Shown here: piece after piece, positions 20,741 to 35,115 of the stretch | How the letters are laid out: each line of letters begins with the position of its first letter | Numbering within the stretch: the stretch's first letter is position 1 | Assembly: GCA_018302105.1 (NCBI GenBank) | Contig: JAGWAD010000001.1 | Coordinates: 1-35,970, forward strand | Direction of reading: 5' to 3' | Origin: Candidatus Woesearchaeota archaeon | GTDB lineage: Archaea > Nanobdellota > Nanobdellia > SCGC-AAA011-G17 > GW2011-AR18 | Length of the DNA: 35,970 nucleotides | Translations under genes and position numbers: made by a program | Notes under the pieces: model-generated | The model's input: the letters and a program-made list of their open reading frames with translations, nothing else | Told to the model about the DNA's origin: nothing | Databases searched by the model: none

Positions 20741-20762
20741 TTTATGACAGCATTCTAAAGTG

Positions 20763-20829
20763 GTGACATATTTATAAAGCTTTTGATATACTCTATATAT
20801 TAACCACCAGTTAATGAAATTATAAATAC
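20763..20829. promoter_or_regulatory. divergent promoters with shared 23-bp element
   Basis: For the minus-strand cassette, TTTATAAA at about 20770-20778 lies 30 bp before ATG 20740. For the plus-strand gene, ATTATAAATAC at about 20818-20828 lies about 38 bp before ATG 20865. Between them are a copy of the element also present at 8822-8844 (here 20782-20804) and a small inverted repeat TTAAC-CACCA-GTTAA (20800-20814) that could be an operator. Confidence 0.5.
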
Positions 20830-21374: not shown

Positions 21375-21387
21375 ATTTAAAGATTAT

Positions 21388-21434
21388 AGTCAACCAACAA
21401 AGTAATTGGGTATTTTTTATTTTTGTTGTTGACT
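21388..21434. terminator. imperfect hairpin between convergent genes
   Basis: Left arm at 21388-21401 and right arm at 21422-21434 pair along 13 bp (AGTCAAC / GTTGACT outer part, AACAAA / TTTGTT inner part) with one bulged C. The loop contains a T-rich run. It lies just after the stop at 21374 and before the convergent korB stop at 21500, so it probably helps terminate one or both transcripts. Confidence 0.45.
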
Positions 21435-21437
21435 GAC

Positions 21438-21476
21438 AGCAAATCACTTTTAACCTAAGAATTTATGTGGTTTGCT
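21438..21476. terminator. second hairpin in the same convergent gap
   Basis: AGCAAATCAC (21438-21447) pairs with GTGGTTTGCT (21467-21476) over 10 bp with one G-T or A-C mismatch depending on strand. It directly follows the hairpin at 21388-21434. A tandem pair in a 125-bp gap may be a bidirectional terminator or part of a small structured RNA. Confidence 0.42.
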
Positions 21477-21499
21477 ATATATAAAAATCAGATATTTAG

Positions 21500-22351
21500 T
21501 TATCTAAATTCCTCAAATAATTTATCAATATTAATATTATCAATATTATGTTTATATGAAGGAATTTTAGTTTGTTTAAATAATTCTTCATAGCTTGGCT
21601 TGTTTATTTTATAAAATATTCCAACAGGCATTTTCTTTCCATACTCATGCATTTTTTTAAAAGCCTCTTCCTTATTCGTAAAATCATATTTATTCTGTTG
21701 TAAATCATAACATCTTTCCTTCCAGTAATCATAAGTATTCAAATAATTATAAGTAACACAAGGCTGTAAAATCTCAATAAAAGAAAATCCTTTATGCTTT
21801 ATTCCTTCAGCAATTATTTTAGTTATATGATTTAAATCACCAGCAAAACATCTTGCAATAAAAGTAGATCCAGAAGTTAAAGCCAATAATAATGGATTTA
21901 ATGGATCTTCTACAACACCTTTTGGAGTAGAAATTGTAATAAATCCTTTTTCACTAGTAGGACTTTTTTGTCCAGTTGTTAAACCATAAACTTGATTATT
22001 ATGTAATATTAAAGTAACATCAATATTTTTTCTTGCTGTATGAATTAAATGATTTACTCCTTCTCCTAATAAGTCACCATCACCAGCAGCACTAAACACT
22101 GTTAGATTGCGGTTAGCAAGTTTAGCTCCCAATGCCAATTGTAATCCTCTTCCATGCAATCCTGAAAATCCATATGCTTTAGTCCAATAAGAAATTTTAG
22201 AGCTGCATCCAATTCCGGAAGTAAATGCTAAATTCTCAGGTTGGATATTTAATTCTACAAAAGCCCTTTTTACAGCATTTAAAATAGAAAAATCCCCACA
22301 GCCAGCACACCACGTAATCTTACCTTGCGTATAATCTTTGATTTCAGTCAT
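21500..22351 (-). CDS. korB: 2-oxoacid:ferredoxin oxidoreductase, beta subunit (TPP-binding)
   Basis: The beta subunit binds thiamine diphosphate and one [4Fe-4S] cluster in the enzyme that decarboxylates 2-oxoacids to acyl-CoA and reduces ferredoxin. Counting from MTEIKD, the cluster ligands are C15 and C18 (ITWCAGCGDF), C49 (GIGCSSK) and C198 (LQPCVTYN). The TPP motif is GDGD at 90-93 with the following NHLIHTARKNIDV and NNQVYGLTTGQ. Length 283 aa, normal. ATG 22351 is chosen because AAGGAG lies 11 nt before it, while GTG 22360 is only 2 nt from that site. The start overlaps the stop of the 37-aa Zn-ribbon gene as TAATG. Substrate could be 2-oxoglutarate or another 2-oxoacid. Confidence 0.93.
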   Translation of the reverse strand: MTEIKDYTQGKITWCAGCGDFSILNAVKRAFVELNIQPENLAFTSGIGCSSKISYWTKAYGFSGLHGRGLQLALGAKLANRNLTVFSAAGDGDLLGEGVNHLIHTARKNIDVTLILHNNQVYGLTTGQKSPTSEKGFITISTPKGVVEDPLNPLLLALTSGSTFIARCFAGDLNHITKIIAEGIKHKGFSFIEILQPCVTYNYLNTYDYWKERCYDLQQNKYDFTNKEEAFKKMHEYGKKMPVGIFYKINKPSYEELFKQTKIPSYKHNIDNINIDKLFEEFR

Positions 22352-22464
22352 TAACAGCACGGCTCCTTATATCCACAATTATTACATATTGCATCTTTTC
22401 TTCCAGCTATTCCAACCATTTCATTTATACAACTTGGGCATTCCTGCATTAGTAAAGTTTTCAT
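22351..22464 (-). CDS. 37-aa six-cysteine Zn-ribbon between korA and korB
   Basis: This gene encodes a 37-residue protein with cysteines at 9, 12, 27, 30, 36 and 37: ECPSC, then ICNNCGYKEPCC. The two CxxC knuckles 15 residues apart make a minimal zinc ribbon or rubredoxin-like metal site. The ATG overlaps the korA stop as ATGA, and its TAA overlaps the korB start as TAATG, so all three genes are translationally coupled. It is too small for the 2x[4Fe-4S] delta subunit of related oxidoreductases, which has eight cysteines. Likely an accessory, structural or electron-transfer peptide of the Kor complex (inference from position). Confidence 0.8.
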   Translation of the reverse strand: MKTLLMQECPSCINEMVGIAGRKDAICNNCGYKEPCC

Positions 22465-24212
22465 TTTTTATACATTGATTTTATTTTATCATAAATTTCA
22501 GATGGTGAAAATGGAACACCATTATATTTTAGTAATTTATTTTTAATTTCAATTGTAGTATGTTCTGTAATTAATCCTGATAATTGTCCACTAAAATTTT
22601 CCTCAGCAATAATAATAAATCCCGCCTTGCGCAATATCTCATTAACGATATCTACAGGAAATGGACTCATAGAAATTATTTGTAAAAAATTAACTTTAAT
22701 ATTATCTTTTTCAAAATATTTCATTGCTTCTAAAATTCTTCCTTTCATGCTTCCCCAACCAATTATTGTAATATCAGCATCAATAGAACCATGAAGTTTT
22801 GTCATTTTATTCCCAATTAATTCTTTAGCATATTCTAATTTTCTCATTCTTCTTTCCATCATCTTAATTCTATTTTCAGGATCTTCCGATATTTGACCAT
22901 ATTCATCATGTTCATCACTTCCACAACTATACAACCCATTTTTTTGTCCAGGCAATGATCGCAAAACAACACAATCATTATTGTTATATTCATATCGCTT
23001 ATAGTCTTTAACACTATCCAGTTGTTCATCTTTAGCTATTTTGCCCCTATCAACAGAATATTGTATATTTGGTAAATCAATCACCTTTCCATTATTTGCT
23101 AAATATACATCATGCAATATTAAAACTGGATTTTGTAATTTATCAGCTAAATTAAAAGCTTCTAAAGTTAAATCAAAACATTCTTCAACATCCCCTGGAG
23201 CTAATACAATTCTTGGAAATTCCCCTTGTGCAGCATGTAAAACAAATTGTAAATCTCCTTGTGCACTCTTCGTAGGCAATCCAGTTGCAGGCCCGCCTCT
23301 TTGTCCCATTATTATAACTAAAGGCAGTTCAACCATTCCAGCTAATCCAAAAGCTTCACTCATTAAACAAAATCCACCGCCAGAAGTAGCAACCATGCTT
23401 CTTGCTCCAGTCCAGCTTGCACCTAAAGCAGTATTAATAACAGAGATTTCATCTTCTAATTGTAAAACAACAATTCCATAATCATCTGCCTTACTACTTA
23501 AATAAGTCAAAATTTGTGAACTTGGAGTCATTGGATACTGGCAATGGAATTTTAATCCAGCCTTTATTGCTGCAATGCTTATTGCTTCATTTCCTGTTAA
23601 TAATATTAAATTTTTTCTTTCTTTTTTAACAATTTTATTTCTAAATTCTTTTTTATAATTATTTTTAATAAACTCATAGCCTTTTCTTGCAGCATCAATA
23701 TTCATTTTTACTGTTTTTTCTCCCTTTTTATTGAAATTCTCTTTTAAAATATTAAATAATAATTCCAAATCAATATCAAATAAAGCAACACTAGCTCCAA
23801 GAGCAATAGTATTTCTTAATATTCTTTCTCCAGATATTTCTCTTGAAATCTTCATTAAAGGAACAGCGAATAATCGGATGTCATTTCTTATTTCCGCATT
23901 TGCGATTTTGTCTTCTTCACCATCATAAATTATGCCACCATTTAAAGTAAGTTCATTTTTATGTAAATCAATTGTTTCTTTATTTAAAGCTATTAATAAA
24001 TCACAGGTATCTATGTGGCTAGTAACTATATTGTCTTCAACACGAATATGCGATGTATTGTGTCCGCCTCTAATCAAAGAAGGATAATCATGAGACATAA
24101 AAGCATATAATCCAGAACGCATGCATAGTTTTGCAAATATCAATCCTATACCCATTATTCCATAGCCAGCTTCTCCACCTATCTTTAAAGCAAGCTTATT
24201 TATTTCCACCAT
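22461..24212 (-). CDS. korA: 2-oxoacid:ferredoxin oxidoreductase, fused gamma-alpha subunit
   Basis: A 583-aa protein. Residues 1-185 form the gamma domain (GGEAGYGIMGIGLIFAK, HDYPSLIRGGHN). Residues 200-583 form the alpha domain with GNEAISIAAIKAGLKFHCQY, the pyrimidine-binding TPP partner domain, YPMTPSSQIL, EDEISVINTALGASWTGAR, then SGGGFCLMSEAFGLAGMVE, and a C-terminal transketolase-like domain with GWGSMKGRI. Together with KorB it would form the whole 2-oxoacid:ferredoxin oxidoreductase, linking 2-oxoacid oxidation to ferredoxin. First gene of the three-gene operon. The gamma-alpha fusion is common in this enzyme family. Confidence 0.93.
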   Translation of the reverse strand: MVEINKLALKIGGEAGYGIMGIGLIFAKLCMRSGLYAFMSHDYPSLIRGGHNTSHIRVEDNIVTSHIDTCDLLIALNKETIDLHKNELTLNGGIIYDGEEDKIANAEIRNDIRLFAVPLMKISREISGERILRNTIALGASVALFDIDLELLFNILKENFNKKGEKTVKMNIDAARKGYEFIKNNYKKEFRNKIVKKERKNLILLTGNEAISIAAIKAGLKFHCQYPMTPSSQILTYLSSKADDYGIVVLQLEDEISVINTALGASWTGARSMVATSGGGFCLMSEAFGLAGMVELPLVIIMGQRGGPATGLPTKSAQGDLQFVLHAAQGEFPRIVLAPGDVEECFDLTLEAFNLADKLQNPVLILHDVYLANNGKVIDLPNIQYSVDRGKIAKDEQLDSVKDYKRYEYNNNDCVVLRSLPGQKNGLYSCGSDEHDEYGQISEDPENRIKMMERRMRKLEYAKELIGNKMTKLHGSIDADITIIGWGSMKGRILEAMKYFEKDNIKVNFLQIISMSPFPVDIVNEILRKAGFIIIAEENFSGQLSGLITEHTTIEIKNKLLKYNGVPFSPSEIYDKIKSMYKK

Positions 24213-24649: not shown

Positions 24650-26368
24650 ATGGCACTAGAAGATTTAGCAAGTGAGTTTAGGAAAAAAGGATTTGTTAGG
24701 CAAGCAGTATTATTAGAATCCAATTATAGAGAAGAATATTTAACAGCATTATCTAATCCTAAATGGACAGAAAGACTTAGAGAAGATTTAGGAAGAGAAT
24801 TACATGAAAAATTAATAGAAGATAAAAGATTAGAAAAAGCTTTAGAAAAACTTTTTGGAACCTCTGCAGAAGAAAATACAGAAAGTTTTAATCCAAGAAT
24901 AATTGAATCCAAACCATTAGAATTAACATTTGAATATGAGTTAACAAAAAGTGATGTTGTAAAAGCTTATAAAATTTATAAGGATTTAATAAAATCACAA
25001 AAAGAAGCCTTAATATTAATTTACAAAGAAGTAAAAGATTTAACAAAAAAAGATAAAGAACTATTGTTTAGTATTTACAAGGACAATGACTGGGTTATAG
25101 GTCTTAACAATAAAAATGCAATTGCAAGATATAAAGAAAAATTAAAGAATAGAATAAAAAATTTAAACAGGTGGAGAGAAGATTACGAAAAATATGAAGA
25201 AAAATCCCTAAGCTATTTAAGACAATTAGACTATACATTGCAATTAGTTTTTGATTTAATGCCCTCAATAAGGATAAATAATAAAGATATTAATGTAAGA
25301 TTAGAAGAAAGTTATGAGAGAATTAGAAAAATAAGTGACACTGAAATTGAAAAAGAATTTAATTATTTCAAACAGAATTCAAAAACTAGAATAATAAAAA
25401 ATGCAATATTAGAAATTGATATAGAGCATCTTGAAAAAGATCCTTTTGAATTATTTATAGAAAATTCAGATAAAATGAATGAAGAAGAAATAGTAGAAAC
25501 AATTTTAACAGCAAATCTTAAAGAAAGATCTAAATTTTTAGATGATTACTATTATTTTGATTTAAAAAAAGCACAAGATAATATTATAGGAATGTATCAG
25601 ATAATTACTGGCGGACCAATTACAAATCCAAATGCACATCCAAATTCAGTATTACAAAATCACGGATTATTTCCTAATATAAAATATTCTAGAAAAACAA
25701 AAGAACATTTAGAGAAAATAGTTAGAGAAAATGCAGAACTATTAAGAAAATTGCCTGATATAAGTGATTTAGCACTTCCATCAAAACTAAAAGGAAAAAG
25801 AACATTGACTTATACAATGGAAGAATTGGAAAAATATCCATTAGATGTAACTTACGGAAATGACTCTGGATGTTGTATATTTGTCCCAGAAGAGATTGAT
25901 AAATTAATGATGGGTTATACAATACCAATTTTATTATCAGAACAGGAAATTAGATTATTTGCTAATTTTGTAAAAGTAAATGAAAAGAAAAAACAGAGAT
26001 TTGGATTAGTCATAGGTTTTGAAACTTATATAGAAAATGCTCCAGAACAGAAAATACTTGCTTGCAATAGTCTGGAATTATCAAGATTTGGAATTAAGGG
26101 CGGAAATCAAACAGTTAAAGCAATAAATGATTATAATGAAAATGGTTTAATTCAATATGCAGAGCAATATAATTATAAGGGAATTGTAATGGGCAATCAC
26201 GATTATAATACATCAGTAAATCATTCAGCTAAAACAGGAGATGTTGTCAAAGAAACATTAGTTTATGCAGGGAGGAACACCGAATTTTATAGTGATATAT
26301 TCGAAAAACAAGATGGAAAGATGAGAACAAGAGAAGGCAGTTTATATTGGTTATGGAGAAAACCTTAA
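24650..26368 (+). CDS. hypothetical protein, 572 aa, with a distinct C-terminal domain
   Basis: I do not recognise a family. Residues 1-300 are charged and almost wholly helical, coiled-coil-like (KLKNRIKNLNRWREDYEKYE, SLSYLRQLDYTLQLVF). Residues about 400-550 form a different, globular domain with TYGNDSGCCIFVPEE, RFGLVIGFETYI, LACNSLELSRFGIKGG, IQYAEQYNYKGIVMGNHDYN. The Gly-, Asn-, Asp-, Cys- and His-rich motifs look like an active or binding site. No signal peptide or membrane helix. Its promoter region is shared with the 102-aa gene. Function cannot be assigned from sequence alone. Confidence 0.6.
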   Translation: MALEDLASEFRKKGFVRQAVLLESNYREEYLTALSNPKWTERLREDLGRELHEKLIEDKRLEKALEKLFGTSAEENTESFNPRIIESKPLELTFEYELTKSDVVKAYKIYKDLIKSQKEALILIYKEVKDLTKKDKELLFSIYKDNDWVIGLNNKNAIARYKEKLKNRIKNLNRWREDYEKYEEKSLSYLRQLDYTLQLVFDLMPSIRINNKDINVRLEESYERIRKISDTEIEKEFNYFKQNSKTRIIKNAILEIDIEHLEKDPFELFIENSDKMNEEEIVETILTANLKERSKFLDDYYYFDLKKAQDNIIGMYQIITGGPITNPNAHPNSVLQNHGLFPNIKYSRKTKEHLEKIVRENAELLRKLPDISDLALPSKLKGKRTLTYTMEELEKYPLDVTYGNDSGCCIFVPEEIDKLMMGYTIPILLSEQEIRLFANFVKVNEKKKQRFGLVIGFETYIENAPEQKILACNSLELSRFGIKGGNQTVKAINDYNENGLIQYAEQYNYKGIVMGNHDYNTSVNHSAKTGDVVKETLVYAGRNTEFYSDIFEKQDGKMRTREGSLYWLWRKP

Positions 26369-34008: not shown

Positions 34009-35115
34009 ATGGAAAATTCAGTAACACCATGGGAAGTAAAGGGAAAAATAGACTATGACAAATTAATAAAAGAATTTGGAATGTCTTATATGCCAAAAGA
34101 ACTTCCTAAAATTTTTAATGAAGAATTATTATTTAGAAGAGAAATAGTTTACGGCCACAGGAATTTTAATTTAATATTAGATTGTATAAAAAACAAAAAA
34201 CAATTTGCAATGATGACTGGTTTAATGCCTTCTGGAAAAATGCATATAGGACACGCAATGGTAGCTAGACAATTTATTTTCTATCAAAGTTTAGGTGCAA
34301 AAGTGTATATTACAGTTGCAGACATAGAAGCATATAACACAAGAAATCCAGATATGGAAGAATTAAAAAAAGTAGCAATTGAAGAATATTTATTAAATTA
34401 TATAGCATTAGGTTTAGATCTAAAAAAATGTGATTTTTATTTCCAAAGCAAAAGATCAGATGATGGAAAAAAATCAAACAGTTATTATTCCTTAGCGCAA
34501 AAATCAGCAAGACATATTACTTTTAATGAAATAAAATCTATTTATGGGGATATTACACCTGGAAAATTATCCTCAGCATTATTGCAGGTATCAGATATGC
34601 TTCATCCTCAGCTTCCAGAATTTGAAGGTCAGATTAATGTAATTGTTCCAGTTGGCACAGATCAGGATCCACATATAAAATTAGCACATGATATTATGGA
34701 CAGAATGAAAGGAAATAAATTTTCTCCATTAAGCTCAACATACCATATTTTTATGCCTGGATTAAAAGGAGGAAAAATGTCTAGTAGTGATCCATTGTCT
34801 TATGTAGCATTAACAGACACTCCAGAAGAAGCAGAGAAGAAAATTAAAAAATATGCATTCTCAGGAGGAAAAGACACTTTAGAGGAACACAGAAAATTAG
34901 GCGGAAATCCGGACATAGATATTAGTTATCAGTGGTTAAGGATGTTCTTTGAACCTGATGATAATAAGCTACAAAAAATACATGATGATTACAAATCAGG
35001 TAAGTTACTATCAGGAGAATTAAAACAAATTTTAATAGAAAAAGTTAAAATTTTCTTAAAAGAACATCAGAAAAAAAGAGAATTAGCTAAAAAACAAGTT
35101 GAGAAATTTTTATAA
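34009..35115 (+). CDS. trpS: tryptophanyl-tRNA synthetase
   Basis: A class I aminoacyl-tRNA synthetase that charges tRNA-Trp. The 368-aa length is typical for archaeal TrpRS. Rossmann motif HIGH is at 79-82 in GLMPSGKMHIGHAM, and the KMSKS-type loop is KMSSS at 256-260. Family features include VPVGTDQDPHIKLAHD, KNYAFSGG-like KKYAFSGGKDT, and the C-terminal YQWLRMFFEPDDNKL. The archaeal/eukaryal type is indicated by the N-terminal extension and the internal TPGKLSSALLQ. It is transcribed away from the 4Fe-4S membrane protein, the two starts about 100 bp apart. Confidence 0.95.
   Translation: MENSVTPWEVKGKIDYDKLIKEFGMSYMPKELPKIFNEELLFRREIVYGHRNFNLILDCIKNKKQFAMMTGLMPSGKMHIGHAMVARQFIFYQSLGAKVYITVADIEAYNTRNPDMEELKKVAIEEYLLNYIALGLDLKKCDFYFQSKRSDDGKKSNSYYSLAQKSARHITFNEIKSIYGDITPGKLSSALLQVSDMLHPQLPEFEGQINVIVPVGTDQDPHIKLAHDIMDRMKGNKFSPLSSTYHIFMPGLKGGKMSSSDPLSYVALTDTPEEAEKKIKKYAFSGGKDTLEEHRKLGGNPDIDISYQWLRMFFEPDDNKLQKIHDDYKSGKLLSGELKQILIEKVKIFLKEHQKKRELAKKQVEKFL

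Follow-up and report, generated by a model that had tools for sequence, protein, structure and literature searches.

A conserved six-cysteine microprotein encoded between korA and korB of an archaeon, its unnamed zinc-ribbon family and a possible role in iron-sulfur and redox housekeeping

Introduction

Why does an archaeal genome carry a 37-codon gene fitted without a gap between the two subunit genes of a 2-oxoacid oxidoreductase, and is its product a part of that enzyme? We addressed this question in a woesearchaeal contig stretch of 35,970 nucleotides, analysed as a whole and called the window below, for which a sequence-only reading had proposed the small protein as a dedicated metal-binding accessory peptide of the enzyme. 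Genes as short as this one are mostly overlooked by gene callers, yet its conservation is strong and spans two domains of life.

Results

The features of the window that are needed here are the following.

20759..20776, minus strand: element TATAAATATGTCACCACT, lying beyond korB and a plus-strand ORF as seen from the small gene
21500..22351, minus strand: korB, beta (TPP-binding) subunit, 283 aa from the ATG at 22351 (TIGR02177, TPP_enzyme_C, PFO_beta_C)
22349..22353, minus strand: TAATG stop/start overlap of the small gene and korB
22351..22464, minus strand: six-cysteine small protein, 37 aa (ORF reading, homologues, dN/dS)
22363..22368, minus strand: AAGGAG, Shine-Dalgarno-like, inside the K33-E34 codons of the small gene, putative function
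22461..22464, minus strand: ATGA start/stop overlap of korA and the small gene
22461..24212, minus strand: korA, fused gamma-alpha subunit of 2-oxoacid:acceptor (ferredoxin) oxidoreductase, 583 aa (TIGR03710, POR_N, POR)
34009..35115, plus strand: trpS, tryptophan--tRNA ligase (TIGR00233 above cut-off)

Both enzyme subunits were assigned, with KorA scoring 644.7 bits against TIGR03710 (cut-off 482.75) and KorB lying above the TIGR02177 cut-off with its best start at the ATG at 22351. The frame between them runs from 22464 to 22351 on the minus strand, from an ATG to a TAA, and translates as MKTLLMQECPSCINEMVGIAGRKDAICNNCGYKEPCC. The ATGA and TAATG overlaps described in the sequence-only reading are both present, and its cysteine pattern of two CxxC pairs and a terminal CC also stands, although the spacer between C12 and C27 counts 14 residues and not 15: the order is CPSC (C9, C12), x14, CNNC (C27, C30), GYKEP and CC (C36, C37). 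The AAGGAG lies 11 nt ahead of the korB ATG and may act as a ribosome-binding sequence. No AAGGAG-type sequence was found upstream of the small gene's own ATG, so that translation by coupling would be the natural reading.

Within the window this is the only ATG-start ORF of 25-70 aa with two CxxC pairs; 60 first-order Markov shuffles produced no such frame. A homologue search in 103 genomes of the window's order returned same-family homologues in four genomes (G030, G031, G033, G036) with 68-76 % identity and 24 invariant columns, and pairwise dN/dS values, where dS is unsaturated, range from 0.02 to 0.07. These are far from the value near one that had been named as evidence against the gene and indicate purifying selection. 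Because of these homologues and dN/dS values we regard the ORF as real; together with the shuffles they exclude a chance frame. Of the sequence-only reading, this much is supported: a cysteine-rich peptide resembling a zinc ribbon, conserved, of a size usual for microproteins and in close coupling with korA and korB. A fifth relative (G032) carries a decayed copy in the same place, broken by stops and a frameshift and deprived of most cysteines; the small gene is therefore dispensable.

The small gene has trpS as its constant neighbour in the window's own family; trpS lies divergently beside it or within about 0.5 kb in G030, G031, G033 and G036. In the window trpS is 11.5 kb away, with dph5 on the other side and the relative orientation as in the relatives. 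In G031, G033 and G032 the upstream element TATAAATATGTCACCACT comes right after the small gene (0.02 expected by chance).

Several side observations were made. The conserved TATAARTATGTTACYACT element (window 20759-20776, minus strand; L010 1670-1687; L011 1623-1640; L062 10950-10967) precedes unrelated-looking, often secreted-type genes in the window's family and resembles a shared promoter. Just downstream of korB, at 21376-21492, lies an interspersed repeat of about 110 bp with some 20 full or partial genome copies of 74-92 % identity, which folds into two hairpins (-20 kcal/mol, z -2.1); an Rfam scan of the window, this repeat included, gave no match. A 572-aa ORF at 24650-26368 on the plus strand adjoins korA and reaches no Pfam cut-off. 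G031 holds two adjacent trpS-like frames (L052 5986-8591), one of which has the N-terminus of a tryptophanyl-tRNA synthetase attached to a longer sequence that looks unrelated. Another small zinc-ribbon protein, conserved and about 60 aa long (MKTECPKCKSKHIDAVE...), is encoded at G000:C12 44805-44906, with homologues in G030, G031, G032, G033 and G036, and lies near a Fer4_15-type ferredoxin gene in several of its genomes.

The genome comparison does not bear out the proposed dedication to the enzyme. Searches for KorB and KorA (TIGR03710) gave no match in the four relatives that keep the gene (G030, G031, G033, G036); at their genome completeness of 73-95 % a single kor absence could be missing sequence, but hardly all four together. 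The small ORF is in turn absent from the korAB junctions of G034, G050, G085, G090 and G001, and in the two nearest of these loci, G034 (same family) and G050, korA and korB overlap directly. Absence of the frame at this junction in close relatives had been named in the sequence-only reading as evidence against it, and G034 shows such an absence. In G034, G090 and G001 korAB lies within a few kb of trpS. Two orders of events are conceivable: insertion of the ribbon at the korA-korB junction with a later loss of kor, or capture of the ribbon by kor.

A scan of named genomes first pointed to relatives in Chloroflexota and Patescibacteria. A profile (A3) was built in this analysis, and the alignment comprises the window protein and 31 others. 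Profile searches detected the ribbon in 22 of the 83 genomes of one Patescibacterial order, in 9 of 380 across Patescibacteria and in 26 of 251 Chloroflexota. Further archaeal members come from G1138 and from G1103 (with a weaker one in G252, of the same family as G1103), giving three archaeal families including the window's. Archaeal, Patescibacterial and Chloroflexota members share the C-terminal signature CPxC-x14/15-CxNCG[YF]K[DE]xCC, which the window protein fits; C9, C12, C27, C30 and two glycines are invariant in the 32-member alignment, and C36-C37 is kept in at least 90 %. The window ribbon has the x14 spacer and no tail, the kor-linked bacterial type x15 with CCYD. Pfam and NCBIfam scans gave no model above cut-off for the window protein, which rules out membership of a known family there, and only scattered generic zinc-ribbon matches elsewhere among the 32 members; below cut-off, transcription and ribosomal zinc ribbons (PF02150, TFS, S27ae, L37Ae) show a weak resemblance. 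Solved structures, searched by sequence and by fold, yielded nothing usable, an AF2 model reached pLDDT 72 and pTM 0.40, and Foldseek with this model found no significant fold match. No such gene appears in the titles, abstracts and passages seen of the literature on SUF operons with zinc ribbons and on Patescibacterial 2-oxoacid oxidoreductase operons. Judged by its signature, the small protein is a member of an unnamed, cross-domain family of small zinc ribbons beyond the Pfam and NCBIfam models.

The linkage to kor recurs in this wider family. In 13 Patescibacteria the ribbon gene immediately precedes korA on the same strand, with gaps of 3-534 nt (12 measured), usually in the array sufS-sufU-ferredoxin-ribbon-korA-korB-lon. 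Patescibacteria of the same order without the ribbon still show the order sufS-sufU-ferredoxin-korA, and the ribbon is thus optional in the array; G455 and G458 retain the ribbon and suf genes, with KorA missing. Of the 70 KorA-positive genomes in the searched order, 50 lack the ribbon gene, and across the 83 Patescibacteria its presence shows no association with that of KorA (Fisher p = 0.50), which makes the link one of position and not of co-occurrence. In the KorA tree the window groups with G034 (100/95) and G050 (99/97), and all Patescibacterial KorA sequences branch separately (100/100). A transferred Patescibacterial array is thus ruled out as the source of the window arrangement, and from this tree and the x14 and x15 ribbon types it follows that kor linkage was reached at least twice. 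Of the accessory claim, the tie to kor genes has therefore gained from the Patescibacterial recurrence, while the small protein is not supported as an obligatory or dedicated Kor part.

Elsewhere the ribbon gene neighbours SUF, peroxiredoxin, nickel SOD or unrelated genes. The Patescibacterium G637 shows Rrf2-x-ribbon-sufC-sufB-sufD-sufS-sufU, the archaeon G1103 ribbon-HTH-sufB-sufD-sufS-sufU-sufC, and in the archaeon G252 the ribbon lies upstream of sufB-sufD-sufS. With SUF-linked ribbons in 3 of 9 lineages a binomial p of about 3e-4 is obtained, calculated post hoc on a rough per-lineage background of 1.5 %. In five Patescibacteria the ribbon directly follows a Bcp-type peroxiredoxin gene, and the ribbon of the Patescibacterium G666 (L256 / L214) forms a fusion with an S26 protease, with the genes for nickel SOD and thioredoxin reductase lying upstream. 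The Chloroflexota ribbons have mixed neighbours, without SUF or kor. As a side observation, the SufB frame in the archaeal SUF operon of G252 (L254 4891-7386) measures 831 aa and appears to be interrupted by an intein.

Discussion

The reading that we favour, at a probability of roughly 40 %, is that of a small helper protein, combining a zinc ribbon with a dithiol, in iron-sulfur and redox housekeeping; in this archaeon it would be co-translated with an Fe-S enzyme without being an obligatory subunit of it. C9, C12, C27 and C30 would most likely bind a single metal ion, Zn or possibly Fe, and C36-C37 may form a free, redox-capable vicinal dithiol. The family would serve the SUF/ferredoxin module by handling metal, sulfur or electrons; alternatively it might keep Fe-S proteins matured and repaired. 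By co-translation with KorA and KorB the helper would be produced along with a major Fe-S enzyme. Purifying selection, the six-cysteine signature across archaea, Patescibacteria and Chloroflexota, the recurring Fe-S and redox neighbours and the repeated kor linkage point to such a role. The mixed Chloroflexota contexts, trpS as neighbour in the window's own family, the absent co-occurrence with KorA, the G032 pseudogene, the post hoc nature of the SUF enrichment and the weak AF2 model speak against it. Slightly more tentative is the broader proposal of an unrecognised cross-domain Fe-S/redox family, in which a ribbon with a C-terminal vicinal dithiol would be a small metal-, sulfur- or electron-handling partner of a SUF-ferredoxin-Kor module and would have been recruited to kor independently in the archaeon and in Patescibacteria. 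In lineages with minimal genomes the ribbon is repeatedly found next to genes for Fe-S assembly and for 2-oxoacid oxidoreductases; should the Fe-S role hold, it would represent a tiny, testable addition to SUF/ferredoxin biology, with the terminal CC open to direct mutational test.

Unlikely, though the strongest of its competitors, is a general zinc-finger microprotein that binds RNA, DNA or a regulator in stress adaptation, without special Fe-S chemistry and with its neighbours reflecting stress co-regulation. The faint resemblance to PF02150, TFS, S27ae and L37Ae, the mixed Chloroflexota contexts and the diverse stress phenotypes of Haloferax C(P)XCG microproteins (PMC6562870) would agree with it, but no family model reaches cut-off, and it leaves the near-invariant terminal CC and the repeated SUF, ferredoxin, peroxiredoxin and SOD neighbours unexplained.

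We consider it less probable again that an independent housekeeping microgene merely uses the korA-korB junction as an expression site. In the relatives without kor the gene persists next to trpS, and its orientation with respect to trpS and dph5 is unchanged; coupled translation in place of an own ribosome-binding sequence would be consistent with such hitchhiking; against this, ribbon-korA adjacency arose independently in Patescibacteria, and the chance of a ribbon landing at a kor gene is roughly 0.2 % per lineage.

The original proposal of a dedicated KorAB subunit, providing a structural zinc site or an enzyme-bound electron relay, now appears improbable. It draws on the gapless fit of the gene into the korA-korB junction and on its place just ahead of korA in 13 Patescibacteria, but four relatives without a KorA or KorB match keep the gene under selection, the G034 and G050 korAB loci and most KorA-positive Patescibacteria of the searched order do without it, it is single-copy in the window genome, and most Chloroflexota copies lie distant from kor. 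Least probable of all is a rubredoxin-like carrier whose four cysteines would bind iron and pass electrons from Kor or ferredoxin to peroxidases or reductases, as electron-transfer and peroxide-handling neighbours and weak matches of five members to the rubrerythrin rubredoxin-like domain might suggest, since the knuckles follow the order CPxC, CxxCGY, opposite to that in rubredoxin, and neither sequence nor fold gives a significant rubredoxin match.

Comparison with known systems

Kor/Por complexes offer a parallel in gene arrangement, their delta subunit likewise being a small cysteine-rich gene product of a 2-oxoacid oxidoreductase operon. This 2[4Fe-4S] ferredoxin has eight cysteines in two CxxCxxCxxxC motifs. 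The six cysteines of the small protein (CxxC, CxxC, CC) form no 4Fe-4S motif and rule out a delta subunit, as the sequence-only reading had rightly held; a separate Fer4_15 ferredoxin gene is present in the window genome (G000:C12).

Rubredoxin and desulforedoxin are tiny four-cysteine metal proteins, the former with CxxCGY followed by CPxCG knuckles in a fold of 45-55 aa, the latter of about 36 aa and containing a CC. The small protein differs from both in knuckle order and spacing and in its six cysteines; with the order reversed, 37 aa and no significant match, rubredoxin is ruled out. The RPB9/TFS zinc ribbon (PF02150, NF047723) is weakly similar across both knuckles, but at 16.1 bits against PF02150 the window protein stays under the cut-off of 25.2 and this family is excluded as well; the window protein has no second ribbon, an extra CC and other neighbours.

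The haloarchaeal C(P)XCG zinc-finger microproteins (HVO_2753, HVO_0758) are similar in kind, being stand-alone proteins of less than 70 aa with two CxxC knuckles and predicted zinc binding. Their deletion mutants show conditional phenotypes (PMC11241148, PMC10716476, PMC6562870), and 9 of 14 purified Haloferax C(P)XCG proteins bound zinc, which AlphaFold2 was unable to predict (PMC11241148). Measured against the definition of two such motifs in less than 70 aa, the 37-aa window protein has CNNCG but CPSCI, and many homologues carry a G after both knuckles. The ribbon family matches the HVO-type models only weakly and adds the near-invariant terminal CC and the kor, SUF and redox neighbours.
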